Assembly: GCA_937892815.1 (NCBI GenBank)
Contig: CALBHZ010000084.1
Span: 1 to 7,421, forward strand
DNA from: an uncultured archaeon
GTDB taxonomy: Archaea; Thermoproteota; Nitrososphaeria; Conexivisphaerales; CALBHZ01
Length of the DNA: 7,421 bases
Reading direction: 5' to 3'
In this document: positions 1 through 7,351 of the stretch, one piece after another
Layout: each line of letters opens with the position of its first letter
How positions within the stretch are numbered: the stretch's first letter is position 1
Program-made: the position numbers and the translations under genes
Notes under the pieces: model-generated
The model's database searches: none
The model's input: the letters and a program-made list of their open reading frames with translations, nothing else
What the model was told of the DNA's origin: nothing

Positions 1-236
1 TCGGTGTTCATTATAGCTAACCTAGATTTTCCGCGTCTCTTCTCTATAAATAGAGCGAGCCTAGGCTTACGTTGAAAGGTCTTGCCGAAAGCCTTGAAAG
101 TCCCTCCAAGCTTAATGACCGATGCCTGCATCTCTCCTTCTCTAACGACCACTTTCCTTTCGAAATCCTTGAGCTGTCCTTCGAGCTCCTTTAACCTTTC
201 TTCCAAGTTTTCAGTTGTTGTAATTTCCTCGCTCAT
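1..236 (-). CDS. Unrecognised coiled-coil protein, 5' part only
   Basis: The reading frame starts with ATG at 236 and runs open off the left edge, so 78 residues are visible and the C-terminus is missing. Residues 1-35 are highly charged with a heptad-like leucine pattern (ENLEERLKELEGQLKDFERK), suggesting a coiled coil. Residues 36-78 turn basic and mixed (QASVIKLGGTFKAF, then several Lys/Arg). I do not recognise the family. The start is well supported: the mRNA carries AGCGGGAGGG ten bases before the ATG, a strong ribosome binding site, and a TATA-like box lies further upstream. The same ten-base motif precedes the GTPase gene at 5821. No function can be assigned. Confidence 0.7.
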   Translation of the reverse strand, partial: MSEEITTTENLEERLKELEGQLKDFERKVVVREGEMQASVIKLGGTFKAFGKTFQRKPRLALFIEKRRGKSRLAIMNT

Positions 237-246
237 CTTATAAGCT

Positions 247-256
247 CCCTCCCGCT
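247..256 (-). promoter_or_regulatory. Ribosome binding site, AGCGGGAGGG
   Basis: On the minus strand AGCGGGAGGG sits 10 bases before the ATG at 236. The identical 10-mer occurs 7 bases before the GTPase start at 5821, so both starts are likely correct and both messages have leaders, unlike the leaderless genes elsewhere in this window. Confidence 0.65.
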
Positions 257-281
257 AGATCGTTCTCCTATTAAAGTAGGA

Positions 282-297
282 ACTTAAAAACTCTTTT
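282..297 (-). promoter_or_regulatory. Probable archaeal BRE/TATA promoter for the coiled-coil gene
   Basis: Read on the minus strand this is a purine-rich TGAAAAG followed by GTTTTTAAG, resembling a BRE plus TATA box. A start site about 25 bases downstream would fall near 260 and give a leader of roughly 24 bases that contains the ribosome binding site. The match to the TATA consensus is only moderate. Confidence 0.4.
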
Positions 298-363
298 CAA
301 AAGAACGAGATAGTTCGTAATAAGACGTAATACTATGAGAAAAATGGAAATTCGCTACATAAT

Positions 364-957
364 CTAAACGATAGCGTACGCCTTTAACCCATCCAGTATC
401 ATCTGTACCGCGATTGCGGCTACGAATACAGCCATAACCCTGGCTATAACGGCCGATCCCTTCCTCCCTAGAAAGCCGTATATCTTCTCGCTACTGTTCA
501 GTACGAACCAAGTTATCGCCATTACGATTATTACGGAAGAGAGAGCGTAGAGAATTCCGTATAGCTGTAGGTTAACTATGGTAACGGTTATAGCTCCAGG
601 GCCTACGAGGAGGGGGAAGGCTATAGGCACTACTCCTAAATCCTCCGCTTCAAGCCCCTTAGCCTTCCACTCTCCTCTAATCAATATCTCCATTGAAATT
701 ATGAAGAGAAGGATGCCGCCGGCTATCATGAAGCTATAAATCGATATGTTGAATAGGTTTAAGAGCTCCCTTCCTATTAAAGCGAATAGGAGAAGTAAGG
801 CTGTAGCGGTGTACGATGCAGTTCTAAACGCCTTTCTACGAGCCGACCTATCTAAGTTGCTCGTCATTCCTACGATTATAGGTAAGTTGCCTATAGGATC
901 CACTATTATGAAAAGCCCTACCGTAACCTTTAATAACGTTAGTAATGGATCCTCCAT
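364..957 (-). CDS. MarC family integral membrane protein
   Basis: This encodes a 197-residue polytopic membrane protein of the MarC family (COG2095). Despite the name, no multiple-antibiotic-resistance role is established for the family and its substrate is unknown. Six hydrophobic segments are visible, with the family hallmarks VDPIGNLP near the end of helix 1 and PLLVGPGAIT in the fourth segment; the length is typical. I start at the ATG at 957, giving MEDPLLTLLK, because it places the first helix as in relatives and has GTGAG nine bases upstream. A longer version starting with GTG at 987 would add ten residues and cannot be excluded, since a TATA-like box lies about 25 bases before it. The gene follows the kinase-phosphatase gene by about 50 bases on the same strand and could also be co-transcribed with it. 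Confidence 0.88.
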   Translation of the reverse strand: MEDPLLTLLKVTVGLFIIVDPIGNLPIIVGMTSNLDRSARRKAFRTASYTATALLLLFALIGRELLNLFNISIYSFMIAGGILLFIISMEILIRGEWKAKGLEAEDLGVVPIAFPLLVGPGAITVTIVNLQLYGILYALSSVIIVMAITWFVLNSSEKIYGFLGRKGSAVIARVMAVFVAAIAVQMILDGLKAYAIV

Positions 958-966
958 CCCTTTCAA

Positions 967-971
967 CTCAC
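967..971 (-). promoter_or_regulatory. Ribosome binding site GTGAG supporting the start at 957
   Basis: GTGAG on the minus strand lies 9 bases before the ATG at 957. The same motif stands 7 bases before the vapC start. It favours the shorter MarC start over the GTG at 987. Confidence 0.4.
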
Positions 972-1006
972 GCAATACGTTATACACGCTAATCTAAATC
1001 TAATCC

Positions 1007-1016
1007 GTATTTAAAG
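1007..1016 (-). promoter_or_regulatory. TATA-like box for the MarC gene
   Basis: CTTTAAATAC on the minus strand overlaps the stop codon of the upstream kinase-phosphatase gene. A start site about 26 bases downstream would be near 985, giving a leader of about 28 bases for the start at 957 or a leaderless message for the GTG at 987. This suggests MarC can be transcribed on its own. Confidence 0.45.
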
Positions 1017-2090
1017 AGCTATCCTCGAAGGAAGCTCCCCTAAGTTATCGATTATTAAGTCCGGCTCTTCGTAAATTAGATCCTCTAAAGCTCCAACTCC
1101 CGTTAAAACCGAGATCGTGGAAATCCCAGCGGCTTTACCGGTTCTCACATCGATCGCGGAGTCTCCGACGTAAACGCAGCCTTCCTTTTCTACCCCTAGT
1201 AGCTCTATACACTTCCAGATTATATCGGGATAAGGCTTTCCCCTCTTTACGTCCCTTCTGGTAACTACTACGTCGAAGTACTCCGCTACTCCGCTTCTAC
1301 TTAAAAGATCCTCTAATTCTTCAGCGGAGACATCGCTACCGGTAGCCGCTCCTATCAAGATCTTATGAGATTTAACGAAGTTTAGGGCTTTTCTAACTCC
1401 TTTCAACGGCCTTATTCCCTCTTCGATCAAGCTCTTGTATACAACATTTATCTCTTCATATAACTCCTCAATTAAATCGGAAGGAGCGTGATTGGATAAT
1501 ATTTCAGTTAAGCTCTTTCCCAGGCTTAGCTCTCGTTTAAGCCTATCTAAGGGTAAGGTATCGAGCTTAAAGGACCTAAGCGCTTCATTGAAAGATCTAT
1601 AAAATAGCTTTACGTTGTCGAAGATAGTTCCATCAATATCAAAAATAACGGCTTTCAACCCTTTAACCCTCTTAATAGGCACTTCAACGTTAACCTTTAC
1701 TCGATCTCCTTCCCTTAGCTTAAAGTGCTTCCTTAACTCCACCGGAGCTATTACTTCGACAATATCGGTGTAATAGCCTTTAACTAACGGAATAACTACG
1801 GCACAAGGTTCTCCACCTTCAAATACGGCTTTAAAACACAATCCTAAACAGTAAGATCTGCTCGGGGGAACTATCTTTACGGCGCCATCTAGATGTTTTC
1901 TAACTAACCTCAAGGAGCTTAGCTCGTCTACCTTAACGTTTAAAGTTCCCGGATATGGGGTAAAGCCTAGTTTCTCCTTAAATTGGGAAAGAGCCCATGG
2001 GATGGATACGAACCTTCTTCCTTCCTCTTTTCCGTGTACATACCTTCCCCGTATCTCTACGTTAATGGCTTCAATATCGATCTCGACCAC
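1011..2090 (-). CDS. CTP-dependent riboflavin kinase fused to a HAD-family phosphatase
   Basis: The protein is 359 residues from the GTG at 2090. Residues 1 to about 137 match the archaeal CTP-dependent riboflavin kinase (COG1339, DUF120), which makes FMN from riboflavin: IRGRYVHGKEEGRRFVSIP, GFTPYPGTLNVKVD and IEVIAP-like VEVIAPVELRKHFKLREGD line up with the single-domain enzyme MJ0056 as I recall it. Residues from about 145 form a complete HAD phosphatase: DIDGT (D151, D153), AATGS (T250), RGKPYPD (K285) and VGDSAID (D310, D314), with a helical cap between the first two. All four HAD motifs are intact. Substrate of the phosphatase half is unknown; its sequence is of the phosphoglycolate-phosphatase type. 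A longer start at 2111 adds seven residues, but the GTG has a strong ribosome binding site. The upstream 65-residue gene ends about 50 bases before and may share the transcript. Confidence 0.9.
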   Translation of the reverse strand: MVEIDIEAINVEIRGRYVHGKEEGRRFVSIPWALSQFKEKLGFTPYPGTLNVKVDELSSLRLVRKHLDGAVKIVPPSRSYCLGLCFKAVFEGGEPCAVVIPLVKGYYTDIVEVIAPVELRKHFKLREGDRVKVNVEVPIKRVKGLKAVIFDIDGTIFDNVKLFYRSFNEALRSFKLDTLPLDRLKRELSLGKSLTEILSNHAPSDLIEELYEEINVVYKSLIEEGIRPLKGVRKALNFVKSHKILIGAATGSDVSAEELEDLLSRSGVAEYFDVVVTRRDVKRGKPYPDIIWKCIELLGVEKEGCVYVGDSAIDVRTGKAAGISTISVLTGVGALEDLIYEEPDLIIDNLGELPSRIAL

Positions 2091-2097
2091 GGTTGAG

Positions 2098-2104
2098 CCC
2101 CCTC
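2098..2104 (-). promoter_or_regulatory. Ribosome binding site that decides the kinase-phosphatase start
   Basis: GAGGGGG on the minus strand lies 7 bases before the GTG at 2090 and inside the longer frame that begins at ATG 2111. No comparable motif precedes 2111, so translation most likely begins at the GTG. Confidence 0.55.
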
Positions 2105-2142
2105 TCAACATACCGTAAATAGCTTACCGTCTCAGCGATTAA

Positions 2143-2340
2143 CTAACTTCGGAAAACTTCGTTCTCCACTCTCATATGTTCATTAAGCGTATCCCCTATC
2201 CTTAGCAGCTTAGTTAACTCCTTTACCAGCTCCTCAAGCTTTATCTCCTTTAACCTATGGGCTTTAAGGCGTTGAGTTACTTCCCTGCTTAGCTCTTTAC
2301 GTCCGTTTAAAGCTCTTTCCACCGCTTTAGCTAAATCCAT
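2143..2340 (-). CDS. Small charged helical protein of unknown function (65 residues)
   Basis: The frame runs from ATG 2340 to a TAG and encodes 65 residues rich in Lys, Glu, Arg and Leu, predicted by eye to be two or three amphipathic helices (LAKAVERALNG, LKEIKLEELVKELTKLL). I do not recognise a family. It is supported as a gene by a well-placed TATA box about 28 bases before the ATG, which predicts a leaderless message, and by its position just upstream of the riboflavin kinase-phosphatase gene on the same strand with a gap of about 50 bases. Its small size means it could be spurious. Its composition resembles small nucleic-acid-binding or protein-partner proteins, but this is only an impression. 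Confidence 0.5.
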   Translation of the reverse strand: MDLAKAVERALNGRKELSREVTQRLKAHRLKEIKLEELVKELTKLLRIGDTLNEHMRVENEVFRS

Positions 2341-2362
2341 ATCTTTAAGTCATATCTCGAAT

Positions 2363-2380
2363 AGATATATCGTTTGCTTT
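2363..2380 (-). promoter_or_regulatory. BRE/TATA promoter for the 65-residue gene, leaderless
   Basis: On the minus strand an A-rich AAAGCAAA is followed by CGATATATCT. The TATA centre is about 28 bases before the ATG at 2340, the spacing expected when transcription begins at or next to the start codon. Confidence 0.55.
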
Positions 2381-2381
2381 T

Positions 2382-2396
2382 TTCGTTAAAAACGAA
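2382..2396. repeat. Inverted repeat TTCGTT-AAA-AACGAA upstream of the minus-strand promoter
   Basis: This is a perfect 6-base inverted repeat with a 3-base spacer. It lies about 10 bases upstream of the TATA box serving the 65-residue gene, where an archaeal activator or repressor could act. It may be chance in AT-rich intergenic DNA. Confidence 0.35.
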
Positions 2397-2480
2397 GTAA
2401 GCTCGATGAAGTAACCTGGAGAAGATAAGCCTTGTAACTTACGATAAATCGATCGTTGAAGTCCGAAATATGATCTACTA

Positions 2481-2496
2481 TTGACCAAGCGGTCAA
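2481..2496. repeat. Inverted repeat TTGACC-AAGC-GGTCAA, possible operator
   Basis: This is a perfect 6-base inverted repeat with a 4-base spacer. It lies about 10 bases upstream of the TATA box of the winged-helix membrane regulator. Its size suits a dimeric winged-helix protein, so self-regulation by the downstream gene product is a reasonable guess. Confidence 0.45.
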
Positions 2497-2503
2497 GGAC
2501 GCT

Positions 2504-2515
2504 AGAATTATATCT
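2504..2515 (+). promoter_or_regulatory. TATA promoter for the membrane-anchored regulator, leaderless
   Basis: AGAATTATATCT contains a TATA-like core centred about 25 bases before the ATG at 2535. No ribosome binding site precedes the ATG, so a leaderless transcript is expected. Confidence 0.55.
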
Positions 2516-2534
2516 ATTGTTTATGTAATATTTG

Positions 2535-2969
2535 ATGGTGGAAAAATTGGATATAGATAAGGAGTTTGAAGCTATATCCCATCCGTTGAGGATAAAGATT
2601 TTGGAAATATTATCTAAAAAGCCGTTAAGGTTTTCAGAGCTGAAAAGAGAGCTGGGAATAGAGAGCAGCGGCAAGCTGGACTTCCATATAAGTAAATTAG
2701 GAGGATTAGTTGAAGTAAATAGTGAAGGGAAATACGCCTTAACGAGGGAGGGATACGCTGCTCTTCAAGCTATAGAGGCTATTAGGAGATATGGATGGCA
2801 AAGGAGAGCTTACTACCTCAACCTACTAGCTTACTTAGTAGCGAACGCTTACGCCGCTATCTCCAATTTAAATCTATGGTTAACCTTAATTTTGCCTATA
2901 ACGAGCGCATGGATAGCCTTTTATAGCTATTGGGCTATCGTGAAAAGGGGGATATTTAGGGCTTTTTAA
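2535..2969 (+). CDS. ArsR-like winged-helix regulator with two C-terminal membrane helices
   Basis: The 144-residue protein begins with a winged-helix domain: AISHPLRIKILEIL opens the domain, RFSELKRELGIESSGKLDFHISKL (about 32-55) holds the helix-turn-helix and recognition helix, and LVEVNSEGKYALTREGYAAL is the wing. Residues 93-111 and 113-136 are two hydrophobic segments rich in Tyr, Trp and Leu, followed by a basic tail, so the regulator is probably anchored in the membrane with its DNA-binding domain in the cytoplasm. The same architecture is known in the Sulfolobus regulators ArnR and ArnR1 of archaellum genes; equivalence here is not claimed. I start at ATG 2535 because of the promoter spacing; a TTG one codon earlier is unlikely. 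An inverted repeat upstream could be its own operator. Endonuclease V follows 56 bases later. Confidence 0.85.
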   Translation: MVEKLDIDKEFEAISHPLRIKILEILSKKPLRFSELKRELGIESSGKLDFHISKLGGLVEVNSEGKYALTREGYAALQAIEAIRRYGWQRRAYYLNLLAYLVANAYAAISNLNLWLTLILPITSAWIAFYSYWAIVKRGIFRAF

Positions 2970-2990
2970 CTTCATTAATTTTATAGATAA

Positions 2991-3000
2991 GGAATATAAG
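2991..3000 (+). promoter_or_regulatory. Weak TATA-like box before endonuclease V
   Basis: GGAATATAAG is centred about 30 bases before the TTG start at 3026. A second AT-rich candidate (TTTTATAG) lies near 2979-2986. Read-through from the regulator gene is also possible. Confidence 0.3.
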
Positions 3001-3025
3001 AGGTCGGAGGTTAATTTAATACAGG

Positions 3026-3676
3026 TTGGTTAAAATCGACTTAAGGAAAGCGAGGTACGCACAGATATTAATTTCGAAAAAGGCGATCGAAGAGGATTCC
3101 TTTAACCATCCCATTAGGAACGTTGGAGGAGTAGATGTAGCCTTTAAGTCCAATTACTCAATAGGGGCGGCCGTAGTTTTAAGCTACGACGATTTAAGGG
3201 TTTTAGGGAAGGCGTATTATATCTCAGAAGTTAGGATTCCTTACATACCTACGTACTTAGCCTTTAGGGAGATAAGGGCTATGATTGGAGCCGTAAATAG
3301 GCTTTCGATTAAGCCCGACATAGTTTTAGTCGATGCTCACGGTAAATGCCATCCTAGGAGAGCTGGAGAAGCTACTCATTTAGGGGTCGTACTAGATATA
3401 CCTACTATTGGAGTTGCTAAATCTCACTTAACTGGAAAAGAGAGGGAGGATGGATACATAGTTGATAACGATGGAGAGGTATTAGGTTATCATCTCATGC
3501 CAAACGTATACGTTAGCGTTGGCCATAGGATTTCGTTAAAAACGGCAATTAAGATCGTTAAGAAGTTAACCGTGTACGGAATACCTGAGCCTACTAGGCA
3601 AGCCCATATATATGCAAATGAGGTAAAGAGCAAATTAAGTAAAATCTTGAGTAAAGGAGGGAAGGCCGAGCTTTAG
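3026..3676 (+). CDS. nfi: Endonuclease V (deoxyinosine-specific repair nuclease)
   Basis: This 216-residue protein is endonuclease V, which nicks nucleic acid at the second phosphodiester bond 3' of a deaminated adenine (inosine) and starts its repair. The family motifs are all present: GVDVAF with catalytic D37, the wedge region RIPYIPTYLAFRE with Y73 and E82, LVDAHGKCHPRRAGEATHLG with D103, and IGVAKSHL with K132. Near the C-terminus PEPTRQAHIYANE carries the conserved histidine (H194). Length is normal. The start is a TTG: an in-frame stop lies three codons upstream, and MVKIDLRKARYAQ is the usual N-terminus of the family. GGAGG at 3006-3010 is 15 bases from the TTG, too far for a standard ribosome binding site, so the message may be leaderless. 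The gene follows the membrane regulator; I see no functional link. Confidence 0.93.
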   Translation: MVKIDLRKARYAQILISKKAIEEDSFNHPIRNVGGVDVAFKSNYSIGAAVVLSYDDLRVLGKAYYISEVRIPYIPTYLAFREIRAMIGAVNRLSIKPDIVLVDAHGKCHPRRAGEATHLGVVLDIPTIGVAKSHLTGKEREDGYIVDNDGEVLGYHLMPNVYVSVGHRISLKTAIKIVKKLTVYGIPEPTRQAHIYANEVKSKLSKILSKGGKAEL

Positions 3677-3700
3677 CAAAACGTAAGCATAAAGTAAGAA

Positions 3701-3711
3701 TTTTTATATAC
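3701..3711 (+). promoter_or_regulatory. TATA promoter for vapBC, leaderless
   Basis: TTTTTATATAC is centred about 27 bases before the ATG at 3734, with an A-rich AGTAAGAA just upstream as a possible BRE. This spacing favours ATG 3734 over the TTG at 3719 as the antitoxin start. Confidence 0.6.
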
Positions 3712-3733
3712 TACCTTTTTGTATAAGAAATTT

Positions 3734-3964
3734 ATGGGTAGGTATGTTACCGTTTCAGCTAAGGTGCCTAACGAGCTTAGGGAGAAAGCCAAGAAGTTCA
3801 ACATCAACGTTAATCGATTAATTAGGAAAGCTCTTGAGGATGAAGTCCGTCGTAAAGAGGAGGAAGAGTTGAGGAAGATGGCTAATGAAGTAAGCGAAAT
3901 ACTTAAGAAGATATCTAGTGAAGAGATCACGAAGTTAATTCGTGAGACGAGATATGAAAGGTAG
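3734..3964 (+). CDS. vapB: VapB-type antitoxin, ribbon-helix-helix
   Basis: The 76-residue protein is a probable antitoxin that binds and neutralises the PIN toxin encoded next to it and represses the shared promoter. MGRYVTVSAKVP is the N-terminal DNA-binding ribbon, NELREKAKKFN and NVNRLIRKALEDEVRR are the two helices of a CopG/MetJ-like fold, and the rest is a charged helix with runs of Glu, Lys and Ile (EVSEILKKISSEEITKLIRE), the usual toxin-wrapping region. A TTG at 3719 would add five residues, but the TATA spacing points to the ATG. Its end overlaps the start of the toxin gene by 11 bases, which indicates translational coupling. The assignment rests on fold pattern, size and the adjacent PIN gene. 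Confidence 0.82.
   Translation: MGRYVTVSAKVPNELREKAKKFNINVNRLIRKALEDEVRRKEEEELRKMANEVSEILKKISSEEITKLIRETRYER
3942..3946 (+). promoter_or_regulatory. Ribosome binding site GTGAG for vapC, inside vapB
   Basis: GTGAG ends 7 bases before the ATG at 3954 and lies within the last codons of vapB. It decides between that ATG and the GTG at 3942. Confidence 0.45.
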
Positions 3965-4394
3965 GTATTTATTCGATGCGAGTAGCCTTCTAAACATAAC
4001 GAGGGAGCTGGGAGAGAAGGTTATCGATGTAGTAAAGAACAACTTTACGATATCTCTCGCCTATTATGAAATTGGAAATGCCCTTTGGAAGGAATGTAGA
4101 TTACTCAGGAAATTAGATCTAAATTCAGCGATAAAGACCTTAAGGTTCATGTTCTCAATGTTCTCTAAGATGACGGTAATAGGGATAGAAGAAGGAGGCT
4201 TGGGAAACTCGATACTGACTAACGCCTTCAAATACAACATCACTTACTACGATGCCTCGTACTTAAGCGTAGCTAAGAAGTTGGATGCGATTTTAGTCAG
4301 CGATGATAAAGAGTTGATTAAGATAGCTAAAAAGCTGAAGGTAAACGGTATAACGAGTAAGGAGCTAATTAATTTACTGTACAGTAAGGATTAG
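3954..4394 (+). CDS. vapC: VapC-type PIN-domain ribonuclease toxin
   Basis: The 146-residue protein is a PIN-domain toxin, expected to be a magnesium-dependent ribonuclease cutting tRNA or rRNA when freed from its antitoxin. The acidic active-site residues are in place: D8 in YLFDASSLLN, E39 in YYEIGNALWKE, D100 in TYYDASYLSVAKK, and D117/D118 in LVSDDKELIKIAKK. Length is normal and the frame is intact, so the module looks functional. I start at ATG 3954 because GTGAG lies 7 bases upstream; a GTG at 3942 would add four residues. The coding region overlaps vapB by 11 bases. Toxin-antitoxin pairs are common accessory cargo in hyperthermophilic archaea; the stretch that follows (4395-4654) holds only gene debris at most. 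Confidence 0.88.
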   Translation: MKGRYLFDASSLLNITRELGEKVIDVVKNNFTISLAYYEIGNALWKECRLLRKLDLNSAIKTLRFMFSMFSKMTVIGIEEGGLGNSILTNAFKYNITYYDASYLSVAKKLDAILVSDDKELIKIAKKLKVNGITSKELINLLYSKD

Positions 4395-4489
4395 CAAAAT
4401 CTACGAGCTATTTTAAGAAGTAGGGAAAGGGATTTGAATGCTTCATCGAAATAGCTTTAGCCCCCAAAAAACCCTTCTAGACTTTCCAT

Positions 4490-4654
4490 CTATACGTCAA
4501 TATCTTTAATGATCTGATTGCGTTCAGTTCTTGAGAATTTCAGCTCAGATAATATCTTCCTTGCTTCATTAAAGTACCGATAGGAGACATTCTTCTAATT
4601 AATTTTAACATCCTGTCTAATATTTAAATGATCTTTACTGAGGAGGTGTATAGC
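4490..4654 (-). pseudogene. Possible short coding remnant downstream of the GTPase gene
   Basis: Between vapC and the GTPase gene lie 260 bases without an intact gene. On the minus strand, in frame with the GTPase and directly after its stop, codons continue as a short peptide, hit a TAG at 4595-4597, and continue again for 34 codons containing FNEARKILSELKFSRTERNQ before a second TAG. The last part has the amino-acid make-up of a real archaeal protein and no start codon. It may be the tail of a lost gene or a chance open frame. A run of six T on the minus strand near 4465-4480 could act as a weak terminator. Confidence 0.15.
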
Positions 4655-5821
4655 TTACTTCCTAAGATGTATTTCGATTATGTCTCTATCCTCAAGCTTA
4701 TGTTCTAAGCCAACCCTCATTCCGGGGTATTTAGCAGAAGGTCCCCATATCTTAGCATACTTAAAGTGCTTTACAAAATCTCTATGTATTAACTTAGCTA
4801 CATCTTGTACCGTAGATCCTCTTTTTAACACTAAAGGAGTAGATGAAGGAGCTTCATTTGGCTGTTTAGTATAAACCCTTATTAAGTCGAGCATGTCGAA
4901 AAGGGTTCTACATATATCCTCTAGCCCCTTATTTTCTAGAGCTGAAACGGGTATAATGGGGATCTCCTTTGGAACTACTTTCCTTAGCTTTTCGTAGTTC
5001 TCTAAAGCTCCTTCGACATCGATTTTGTTGGCTACGATGATTGTAGGCTTGTAGGAAACGTTTCCAAATATCGACTTCTCTACGTCATCTAAAGTTACCT
5101 CTCCAGCGATCTTAACTACGGCGTTGTATATCCTATAGCTCTTCAGAAGCTTAATTACATCGTCTACCGTGCATCCTATTAGCCTGCCCGATAGAACTAC
5201 CTTAATTCCTATACCTCCTTTCTCGATAGCTACTTGCCCCTTGGGCTTCTTAACGTAGATGTTAACCTTGGAAAGCTCGCTTAGTACCACCTTTAGCTGT
5301 TCTATCGGATCGCTAGATAGATCGAGCACTATTACTAAACCGTCCGCATTTCTAGCGAGTCCCAAGACCTTAGTTCCCCAAGCAACTCCTTCGGCGGCTC
5401 CAGGCATTAACGCAGGAGCCTCGATAAATTGAAATCTTATATCTTCGTATTGAGGCATGCCGGGTACTGGAAACTTCGTAGTATACGGATAATCGGATAC
5501 CTCAACTTTTGCATTTGAAAGTCTGGATAACAAAAGGCTTTTCCCTACGTTCGTAAGCCCTAACATAACCACTTGAGCGGCTCCTTCCTTCTCTATGAAG
5601 AAGCTCGGTCCTCTTCCGACCTTCTTCCTCCTCTTCTCCTCTAACTCCTCCCTAAGCTCGGCAAGCCTCCTCTTAGCCCAGTAAAGGAGGTTTTCAGTGC
5701 CCTTATGCTTAGGGACCGCCGATATGAACTCCCTTAAGGCCTCAATTTTCTCCTCGATAGTTCTAGCTTCCCTAACTTTAGCCCATTTAGCCTTAGCTTC
5801 CGAAGGCAGGTTAGCCGGCAT
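4655..5821 (-). CDS. DRG-like GTPase with C-terminal TGS domain
   Basis: The 388-residue protein belongs to the DRG/Rbg branch of the Obg-HflX GTPases (COG1163), cytoplasmic proteins linked to ribosomes and translation. Residues 1-70 are a helical, charged N-terminus with KGTENLLYWAKRRLAELREEL. The G domain carries G1 GLTNVGKS (88-95), switch I YPYTT (111-115), G4 NKID (265-268) and G5 SALE (293-296), interrupted by the family's inserted subdomain (about 185-255). The TGS domain fills about 314-388 and ends in DRDIIEIHLRK. The G3 motif is unusual: QFIEAPAL replaces the typical QLLDLPGI, so both the Asp and the Gly of DxxG are changed. The start at 5821 has GGGAGGG seven bases upstream and a TATA-like box further up. 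It is divergent from the poorly defined region to the right. Confidence 0.9.
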   Translation of the reverse strand: MPANLPSEAKAKWAKVREARTIEEKIEALREFISAVPKHKGTENLLYWAKRRLAELREELEEKRRKKVGRGPSFFIEKEGAAQVVMLGLTNVGKSLLLSRLSNAKVEVSDYPYTTKFPVPGMPQYEDIRFQFIEAPALMPGAAEGVAWGTKVLGLARNADGLVIVLDLSSDPIEQLKVVLSELSKVNIYVKKPKGQVAIEKGGIGIKVVLSGRLIGCTVDDVIKLLKSYRIYNAVVKIAGEVTLDDVEKSIFGNVSYKPTIIVANKIDVEGALENYEKLRKVVPKEIPIIPVSALENKGLEDICRTLFDMLDLIRVYTKQPNEAPSSTPLVLKRGSTVQDVAKLIHRDFVKHFKYAKIWGPSAKYPGMRVGLEHKLEDRDIIEIHLRK

Positions 5822-5828
5822 CGATATA

Positions 5829-5838
5829 CCCTCCCGCT
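5829..5838 (-). promoter_or_regulatory. Ribosome binding site, AGCGGGAGGG
   Basis: On the minus strand this 10-mer ends 7 bases before the GTPase ATG. It is identical to the one before the coiled-coil gene at 236. Confidence 0.65.
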
Positions 5839-5867
5839 GAGAATACCATCGATGATTTATTATTATA

Positions 5868-5879
5868 TCATAAAAATGA
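5868..5879 (-). promoter_or_regulatory. TATA-like box for the GTPase gene
   Basis: CATTTTTATGAT-like sequence on the minus strand lies within a very AT-rich tract (5850-5895). A start site about 26 bases downstream would be near 5847 and give a short leader with the ribosome binding site. The tract holds several alternative TATA-like words, so the exact box is uncertain. Confidence 0.4.
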
Positions 5880-5893
5880 TTATTATTTATTAT

Positions 5894-6140
5894 ATGTATA
5901 TCGCTACCTTAGTTTTCGGAATTTATGAAGAGGGAAGGGCTTTACCTCTACAGCTTTCGCTATGTTGGTGGGTTCTGGATATCGGCTGGATAGGCCTTAT
6001 TAGCTTCATCCTCGCTGTATGGCTTATGGCGTTTGCCGTTCAATAGCGTTATTTTCTCGCTTACCGGCTTAATATTGTTGCTAATTGGATGTACGTCTGC
6101 TCTCGCTGAGCTTTTGAACTCCGTTCATTTCATAGGTTAG
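5894..6140 (+). pseudogene. Possible frameshifted small membrane protein; otherwise empty stretch 5822-6178
   Basis: No convincing gene lies between 5822 and 6178. Two hydrophobic frames overlap here. One runs from ATG 5894 to a TAG at 6044-6046 and contains WIGLISFILAVWLMAFAV. The other, shifted by +1, is open from 5994 to a TAG at 6138-6140 and contains SVIFSLTGLILLLIGCTSAL. Joined by one frameshift they would give a protein of about 81 residues with two or more membrane segments. An AT-rich TATA-like word near 5861-5870 is spaced for a leaderless start at 5894. There is no ribosome binding site and no recognisable family, so this may be non-coding. The complementary strand has a longer hydrophilic open frame but no start codon. 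Confidence 0.2.
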
Positions 6141-6161
6141 TTGAGAAAACCTACAGGCTTT

Positions 6162-6169
6162 AGGGAGGA
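6162..6169 (+). promoter_or_regulatory. Ribosome binding site AGGGAGGA for the 46-residue gene
   Basis: AGGGAGGA ends 9 bases before the ATG at 6179. It directly follows an in-frame TAG, so the short frame cannot extend upstream and this ATG is the only plausible start. Confidence 0.5.
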
Positions 6170-6178
6170 TTTAAAACG

Positions 6179-6319
6179 ATGACGCTTAGAGAATGGAAAG
6201 AGTTCTTCGAGAATTTAGGGTTAATTGAGGTTAAGAAATTAAATGGCTATGCAGTATTTAGAATTAGTGATAAGGGGTTAAAGGTTATTAATAATTTACA
6301 ACAGTTACTTAGGCATTAA
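6179..6319 (+). CDS. Short winged-helix domain fragment (46 residues)
   Basis: The peptide looks like the second half of an archaeal winged-helix DNA-binding domain: a helix WKEFFENLGLIEVKK followed by the wing NGYAVFRISDKGLKVINNL. The first helices of the usual domain are absent and a stop codon precedes the start, so it is either a degenerate remnant or a minimal stand-alone protein. A good ribosome binding site argues that it is translated. It lies at the point where base composition changes (about 6110-6200), and its 5' part may have been lost at a recombination or assembly junction. It is followed after 42 bases by a 111-residue gene on the same strand. Any regulatory target is unknown. 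Confidence 0.5.
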   Translation: MTLREWKEFFENLGLIEVKKLNGYAVFRISDKGLKVINNLQQLLRH

Positions 6320-6361
6320 CTTAATTAATGCAACGTCACAGAAGTTCTTGAGGGGTGATTA

Positions 6362-6697
6362 TTGAGGGTTAGGGTCTTAAGGAATGAGGATGTTAGTAAA
6401 ATTATAGCCTTTATACCTCCTCGCCATATACATACACGTGTAGCTTTATTCATAGGTGATGATGTTTTAATACTTCAGCAAGCAACTGTAGATGCTTTAA
6501 TCAGGGCATATGCATCAGTAGCTTTACACCCTACTAGGAGGGCTATTGAGTTAACTAGTGTTAAGCTCTTTAAGGGTGCTAGGAAAGACGGTTTTGCTGA
6601 GTATCAATTAATTGAGTCAGGGAGACCTGAGGATGAGGTTTTAAATGAGATTACTAAGTTATACTACGGTGATGAGACCCGCGCGTCAGATAGTTGA
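6362..6697 (+). CDS. Conserved-looking archaeal protein of unknown function (111 residues)
   Basis: The frame begins with TTG at 6362, just after GGGGTGA, a ribosome binding site at close spacing; an in-frame TGA at 6356 rules out anything longer. The protein is soluble, with a regular alternation of strands and helices: VRVLRNEDVSKIIAFIPP, HTRVALFIGDDVLILQQATVDALIRAYASVALHPTRRAIELTSVKLF, then GFAEYQLIE. The central part (ATVDALIRAY, HPTRRAIEL, FAEYQLIE) looks strongly constrained and I have the impression of a small archaeal family, but I cannot name it or give a function. The last ten codons are embedded in a C/D box sRNA candidate, and its TGA stop is part of the C' box. An HD phosphohydrolase gene follows about 100 bases downstream. 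Confidence 0.75.
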   Translation: MRVRVLRNEDVSKIIAFIPPRHIHTRVALFIGDDVLILQQATVDALIRAYASVALHPTRRAIELTSVKLFKGARKDGFAEYQLIESGRPEDEVLNEITKLYYGDETRASDS

Positions 6698-6716
6698 TGA
6701 GACCGCCATCGTCTGA
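6669..6716 (+). ncRNA. C/D box guide sRNA candidate overlapping the end of the 111-residue gene
   Basis: The segment has the layout of an archaeal C/D box sRNA, which guides 2'-O-methylation of rRNA or tRNA by fibrillarin, Nop5 and L7Ae. It shows C box GTGATGA (6669-6675), an 11-base guide, a degenerate D' box CAGA (6687-6690), a 4-base spacer, C' box TGATGA (6695-6700), a 12-base guide (6701-6712) and D box CTGA (6713-6716). Box order and spacings fit the archaeal pattern closely. Predicted complementary targets are ACGAUGGCGGUC for the D guide, with the U as the methylated base, and ACGCGCGGGUC for the D' guide. The terminal stem is weak and D' is imperfect. TTTT follows at 6722-6725. I could not place either target in rRNA from memory. 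Confidence 0.65.
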
Positions 6717-6746
6717 GAATTCTTTTGATTGCCATAGCTATAGAGT

Positions 6747-6757
6747 AACTAATATAC
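6747..6757 (+). promoter_or_regulatory. TATA-like box for the HD-domain gene
   Basis: AACTAATATAC lies about 44 bases before the ATG at 6796, which would give a leader of roughly 15-20 bases. The leader holds GGTTGAG 5 bases before the ATG, a weak ribosome binding site. A short inverted repeat (CCACA at 6763-6767, TGTGG at 6781-6785) lies between them. Confidence 0.35.
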
Positions 6758-6795
6758 CTCTTCCACATCTATACTAGTGGTGTGGTTGAGTTAAG

Positions 6796-7351
6796 ATGGT
6801 TATTGTATCCCCATACCTACTTCAGAAACATATATCTAGTTCTTACCTACTTCAAAAAGTAAGTAAGGTTGTTGAAAATGATGAGGAGATTAATGAGCTT
6901 CTTAAGATGAGTAACGTAATGGCTGTTACAAGGCTTAAGTATAATGACCATGGCATCGTTCATGCTAGGATAGTTGCTGGAGCTTCCTTAGAGCTTATGG
7001 ATTTACTACTTAGGGGAGGTGTTGAACCTACTACATTAAGGGATGGTATTGCTAAGAACCTAGATGAGGTTAAGTTAATTGTTTTCCTAGCTGCTTACCT
7101 TCACGATATAGGTAATTCAATACATAGGGTTAATCACGAATATATAGGTGCTTTATTAGCTAAGGACATCTTAGACAGGGTTTTACGGAATGTACTTGAG
7201 GTATCTGAGAAAAGGCTTTACGGTATTAGACAGGAAATACTGCATGCTATATACGCGACTGAATATCATGTAGAGTGCTTAACAGTTGAATGTAGTGCTA
7301 TTAAGATAGGGGATGGACTTGATATGTCTGAAGGCAGGGCAAGAATACCGT
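6796..7351 (+). CDS. HD-superfamily metal-dependent phosphohydrolase, 3' end cut by adapter
   Basis: The ATG at 6796 opens a frame with 185 genuine residues before the adapter. It is an archaeal HD-domain phosphohydrolase, most like COG3294. The metal-binding pattern is visible: H52/H56 in HGIVHARIV, H103-D104 in AYLHDIGNSIHRVNHE, H150 in EILHAIYATEYH, and D173/D176 in KIGDGLDMSEGRARIP. The last motif closely resembles the ADGTDMxxGRARIPY signature of this family as I remember it, and the single T at 7351 would begin the expected Tyr codon. Perhaps 40-60 residues are missing. The frame stays open through the adapter to the end of the window, so an automatic translation would carry a false 23-residue tail. 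The natural substrate is unknown. It belongs to the CGA/TCG-poor right arm. Confidence 0.88.

Follow-up and report, generated by a model that had tools for sequence, protein, structure and literature searches.

Does the end of a 111-codon open reading frame (ORF) on contig CALBHZ010000084.1 from an uncultured archaeon also encode a box C/D small RNA (sRNA)? The whole stretch of 7,421 nucleotides (nt) is called the window. The answer is very probably yes, with the sRNA gene at positions 6669-6716. The full reading, to which a probability of about 0.88 was assigned, is an archaeal gene for a box C/D sRNA that shares bases with the tail of the ORF and has the ORF's stop codon in its C' box, the RNA being predicted to be cut from the mRNA and to guide 2'-O-methylation. 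Archaeal C/D sRNAs carry two guides of ~10-13 nt and a short spacer between the D' and C' boxes. Their C/D and C'/D' pairs form a kink-turn (k-turn) and a k-loop, which are bound by L7Ae and joined by Nop5 and fibrillarin; the guide then pairs with its target, and the nucleotide facing the fifth base of the guide, counted back from D or D', is methylated.

Box pattern across the stop codon

An earlier note on this DNA had described GTGATGA, 11 bases, CAGA, 4 bases, TGATGA, 12 bases, and CTGA at 6669-6716, and the pattern was exact on reading the sequence, as was the 10-base direct repeat that it had pointed out (TGATGAGACC, with exact copies at 6670-6679 and 6695-6704). The stop codon had been placed within the C' box, where the ORF does end, and the suggestion that the same bases act as codons and as guide is supported by the overlap geometry: the sRNA takes in the ORF's nine final codons and its stop, and the remaining sRNA bases follow directly 3' of the ORF. 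The window thus holds the C box (RUGAUGA) and the D box (CUGA) of archaeal box C/D sRNAs, with TGATGA and CAGA as the internal C' and D' boxes, and its guide lengths and spacer (Table 1) fit the C/D sRNA range. C/D patterns were searched in a strict and a looser form; both gave one match in positions 1-7340 (both strands), and neither matched in any of 1000 simulated windows of the same length (order-3 Markov). No Pfam match was obtained for the 111-codon ORF. By eye, a TATA-like TTTTAAAT lies at 6639-6646 within the ORF, ~23-30 nt 5' of the C box; it is possibly a promoter of the predicted sRNA's own.

Table 1. Parts of the predicted sRNA and the overlapping ORF
Feature	Position	Strand	Remarks
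111-codon ORF	6362..6697	+	TTG start as listed; stop TGA at 6695-6697
C box GTGATGA	6669..6675	+	read from sequence; codons are GDE
D' guide GACCCGCGCGT, 11 nt	6676..6686	+	first 10 nt the same in L135, L137, L138, and L140
D' box CAGA	6687..6690	+	canonical CTGA in L137, L138, and L140; unrecognisable in L135
D'-C' spacer TAGT, 4 nt	6691..6694	+	read from sequence
C' box TGATGA	6695..6700	+	begins with the TGA stop of the 111-codon ORF
D guide GACCGCCATCGT, 12 nt	6701..6712	+	relatives' D guide differs
D box CTGA	6713..6716	+	same in all five aligned loci

Conservation at the gene end in relatives

The protein search with the ORF returned a list of 16, headed by the window's own protein. The closest other protein, P0002, is 77% identical and ends in GDEARTSDS, compared with GDETRASDS in the window. 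Among the rows of a 14-row alignment, a tail of this kind was seen only in P0002; P0013 and P0015 were omitted from the alignment, and their tails are also unlike that of the window. Genome contigs were scanned with the protein alignment, giving 67 loci, and with the single protein, giving no match. For a comparison of nucleotide words near the orthologous stop codon, the 32 archaeal-titled homologue loci were taken and the 35 bacterial-titled loci were left out. In four of them (L135, L137, L138, and L140), all titled Desulfurococcales metagenome-assembled genomes (MAGs), the gene end carries (G)TGATGAGACCCGCGCG, which spans the C box and the D' guide, and ACCACCGGCTGA further on. The longest word common with the window was 17 nt in L137, L138, and L140 and 16 nt in L135; in the 28 remaining loci of the 32 it did not exceed 10 nt. 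The C box is kept as GTGATGA in L137, L138, and L140 and reads ATGATGA in L135; the D box with the end of the D guide (ACCACCGG) is kept among all four. Across both strands of 201 loci, bacterial ones included, exact matches to GACCCGCGCG were confined to these four loci and to four copies of the window. Words of 16 and 17 nt came up in 4 of 2000 random stretches, presumably draws on the sRNA itself. No such sRNA was found in L136 and L139, which belong to the same gene family, and viral contigs gave neither a protein relative nor an exact match to either sRNA half.

The place of the element relative to the stop codon differs among the relatives. The distance from the stop codon to the start of the C box is 7 nt in L137 and 8 nt in L138 and L140; since the C box and D' guide lie 3' of the stop in these three loci, their conservation is not due to the protein. 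The D' half is in this way conserved beyond codon constraint, with 17 nt identical in three loci after the stop. In L135, the C box starts before the stop and the ORF continues across both the C box and the D' guide; its reading frame there agrees with that of the window, each giving DETRA. The stop codon of L135, TGA, lies inside an ATGAG that was aligned with the ATGAG of L138, where a degenerate C' box is presumed. In the automatic alignment, the stop of L135 is 6 columns away from the window's stop. In a protein tree of 20 rows, L135 clustered with L137, L138, L140, and P0007 (89/86) and the window protein with P0002 (99/98). Among the six labelled rows, the separate state forms one nested group (97/90), so that one change suffices. 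The overlap would be the older state, an order that is not pressed, given a midpoint root, 14 unlabelled rows, and a label for P0002 taken from its protein tail alone.

The C'-D half of the window's sRNA with up to 3 mismatches matched in 60 of 400 genomes of the bin's class, with only the window exact. Another C'-D half, TGATGAATCCGTCAACATCTGA, recurs in one genus (L118-L133 and further genomes, one base differing in L128) and probably belongs to a second conserved C/D sRNA, whose guide is different. In L142, an Ignisphaera aggregans MAG, six C/D-pattern matches lie at ~824-3320 on both strands, in the 4.8 kb around the orthologous gene, a possible C/D sRNA gene cluster.

At the sRNA stretch of the window, Rfam gave matches to five C/D families (sR14, snoPyro_CD, sR11, sR5, and sR1), all below the gathering score, the best being sR14 (RF01145) at 22.9 bits (E 0.0074; gathering threshold 38 bits). 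These families resemble the window in box order and spacing, but their guides are unlike the window's in the alignments shown. At the orthologous place in L135, sR10 (25 bits) and sR1 matched, also below the gathering score.

Guide targets and competing explanations

No rRNA or tRNA target is established, the pairings being partial. For kin of the bin, 15 small-subunit (SSU) and 15 large-subunit (LSU) rRNA loci were scanned, from 18 genomes each matching among 31. The D' guide forms 9 contiguous Watson-Crick pairs with 23S ACGCGCGGGAG of G008 (L014, L039), a genome of the same order as the bin; the paired bases are the nine adjoining D', N+5 among them, and the genus-mate L037 has ACGCGTGGGAG. 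It forms another 9 contiguous Watson-Crick pairs, again with N+5 paired, with 23S GGGCGCGGGTC of the same genome (L014, L039). Both sites are in stems that differ or are unalignable in other LSU loci, and because these stems vary and G008 is not the host, the sites are kept as leads. The tRNA check proposed in the earlier note was run on the 25 tRNAs of the bin and gave partial pairings for both guides, none of them convincing: the best with the D' guide had 8 Watson-Crick pairs, 2 G-U pairs, and 1 mismatch (L092, tRNA position 44), and the best with the D guide had 9 Watson-Crick pairs, 1 G-U pair, and 2 mismatches (L084). A pattern search of the bin's own genome found no exact complement of either guide besides the sRNA itself.

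For the Desulfurococcales, LSU rRNA was obtained in 6 of 18 genomes and SSU rRNA in 3 of 18. The D' guide has 8 contiguous pairs with 23S AACCGCGGGTC in L203 and L205 and 9 (7 Watson-Crick, 2 G-U) with GCGTGCGGGGT in L202; the D guide has 8 with GATGGCGG in L203, N+5 inside, and 8 with TGGCGGTC in L202 and L206. By rough estimate, an 8-nt match is about the chance level over the length scanned. A near-match of the D guide in 16S (GCGAAGGCGGTC) was rejected, its mismatch falling exactly on N+5. Only one of the four carrier genomes, that of L137 (G401), had a 23S, without a full guide match, and its assignment is uncertain as this MAG has more than one LSU. That 23S (L203) is ~600 bases longer than most 23S matches; between conserved stretches it apparently contains an intron that carries an ORF-like insert. 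From the 10 conserved nt of the D' guide, the organisms that carry the sRNA would be expected to have an RNA site resembling CGCGCGGGTC.

Several observations weigh against the sRNA reading. The best guide pairings in the sampled rRNAs and the 25 tRNAs are only partial. Of the box conservation that the earlier note had proposed to look for in relatives, the part concerning the C box and D' guide held beyond codon constraint, outside the gene in L137, L138, and L140, but the D guide and the C' region differ between the window and the relatives, in which C' is degenerate. L135 has no recognisable D' box, and the protein tail of P0002 implies at least 2 changes in the D' guide, as judged from the protein. 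L138 and L140 are close relatives, so that there are fewer independent lineages than loci. Neither the window nor the L135 matches to Rfam attain the gathering score, and L137, L138, and L140 had no Rfam C/D match at the sRNA place with E up to 10.

In a variant of the sRNA reading, only the D' guide would work, and the window's D half would be a freely varying orphan guide, partly through the constraint of the overlap. This is tentative, with somewhat more than one chance in three: five loci share 10 nt of the D' guide, whereas the window and the relatives have different D guides (GACCGCCATCGT vs ..ACCACCGG), and a review (PMC7994747) presents a proposal that gene overlap gives rise to orphan guides, but the D box and D-guide end ACCACCGG shared by L135, L137, L138, and L140 show the D half to be maintained there too. 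A different role, in which an mRNA-end k-turn is bound by L7Ae and regulates its own gene or the downstream HD-domain gene instead of giving a free guide RNA, is improbable. The motif does sit at a gene end, 79 nt 5' of the HD-domain ORF, and L7Ae regulation is the subject of a paper entitled thus ('RIP-Seq Suggests Translational Regulation by L7Ae in Archaea'; PMC5539422), but a regulatory k-turn requires neither a conserved 10-nt guide nor a second box pair, and no homologue of the HD protein was found by tblastn in 36 homologue loci, so the pairing with HD is not conserved there. Chance resemblance in an ordinary gene tail, through a short duplication of TGATGAGACC combined with codon bias, draws on the two exact copies of that repeat; it is scarcely credible beside the empty simulations and the 16-17 nt conserved, outside the gene in three relatives.

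With a box C/D sRNA as the preferred reading, the steps would follow those of the known system. The sRNA would be cut from the mRNA of the 111-codon gene. Its C/D k-turn and C'/D' k-loop would each be bound by L7Ae, which Nop5 and fibrillarin would then join, and the bound RNA would be protected during degradation of the remaining mRNA. Each guide would direct methylation of its target opposite the fifth base before D' or D. By analogy, production from the mRNA would fit here.

The arrangement itself is already known. According to PMC7994747, which reviews Tripp et al. (2017), 25% of the C/D genes in six model archaea hold the stop codon of the upstream gene, in any of the four motifs, and in almost half of the overlap cases the stop codon is in the C box; start or stop codons are proposed there, citing the same work, to seed k-turn motifs. 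The archaeal C/D genes overlapping ORF 3' ends in that review have the same arrangement as the window, but the window's stop is in C' and not at the site given for almost half of them. A further difference is that the window's sRNA has two positions among relatives, sharing bases with the gene in some and lying a few nt 3' of it in others. It is a new example among known overlapping C/D genes, the comparison with prior records being with Rfam.

Contig context and significance

The right end of the contig probably comes from another organism, through a chimeric contig, misbinning, or transfer. The nearest named relatives of the gene are Desulfurococcales, and at E 0.001 the gene was found in 0 of 19 same-order and 8 of 41 same-class genomes. 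Codon usage in the two right-hand ORFs, which hold few codons, departs from that in the six left-hand ORFs (GGT 0.56 vs 0.08, AAC 0.20 vs 0.68), and the 3-mer distance of 5851-7340 exceeds that of 97 of 98 bin pieces, some of which overlap. With a foreign right end, the rRNA of the bin's kin may be the wrong place for targets; the sRNA reading is unaffected. The bin (G000) had no 16S or 23S match. At the contig end (7352-7421), CTGTCTCTTATACACATCT ... ATCTCGTATGCCGTCTTCTGCTTG is presumably Nextera/Illumina adapter read-through, and the truncation of the HD-domain ORF near 7350 would then be an artefact. At 3719-4394, a small CcdA-like antitoxin ORF is followed by a PIN-domain ORF, both just below the Pfam cut-off, an apparent toxin-antitoxin pair.

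The locus adds a C/D sRNA that lies below every Rfam gathering score and was spotted in raw sequence, then backed by synteny. It is unlikely that this gene family couples its coding tail to the guide RNA, with a fixed frame over the C box and guide, the stop in C' (window) or presumed C' (L135), and sRNA-protein assembly and translation termination mutually exclusive on one mRNA; if this were true, guide-RNA output would be tied to translation of the gene. The set of relatives, with the separate state in L137, L138, and L140 and the overlapping state in L135 and the window, is a natural comparison of how bases are shared between a guide and codons, and it allows the proposed seeding of k-turn motifs by start or stop codons to be examined within one sRNA family.
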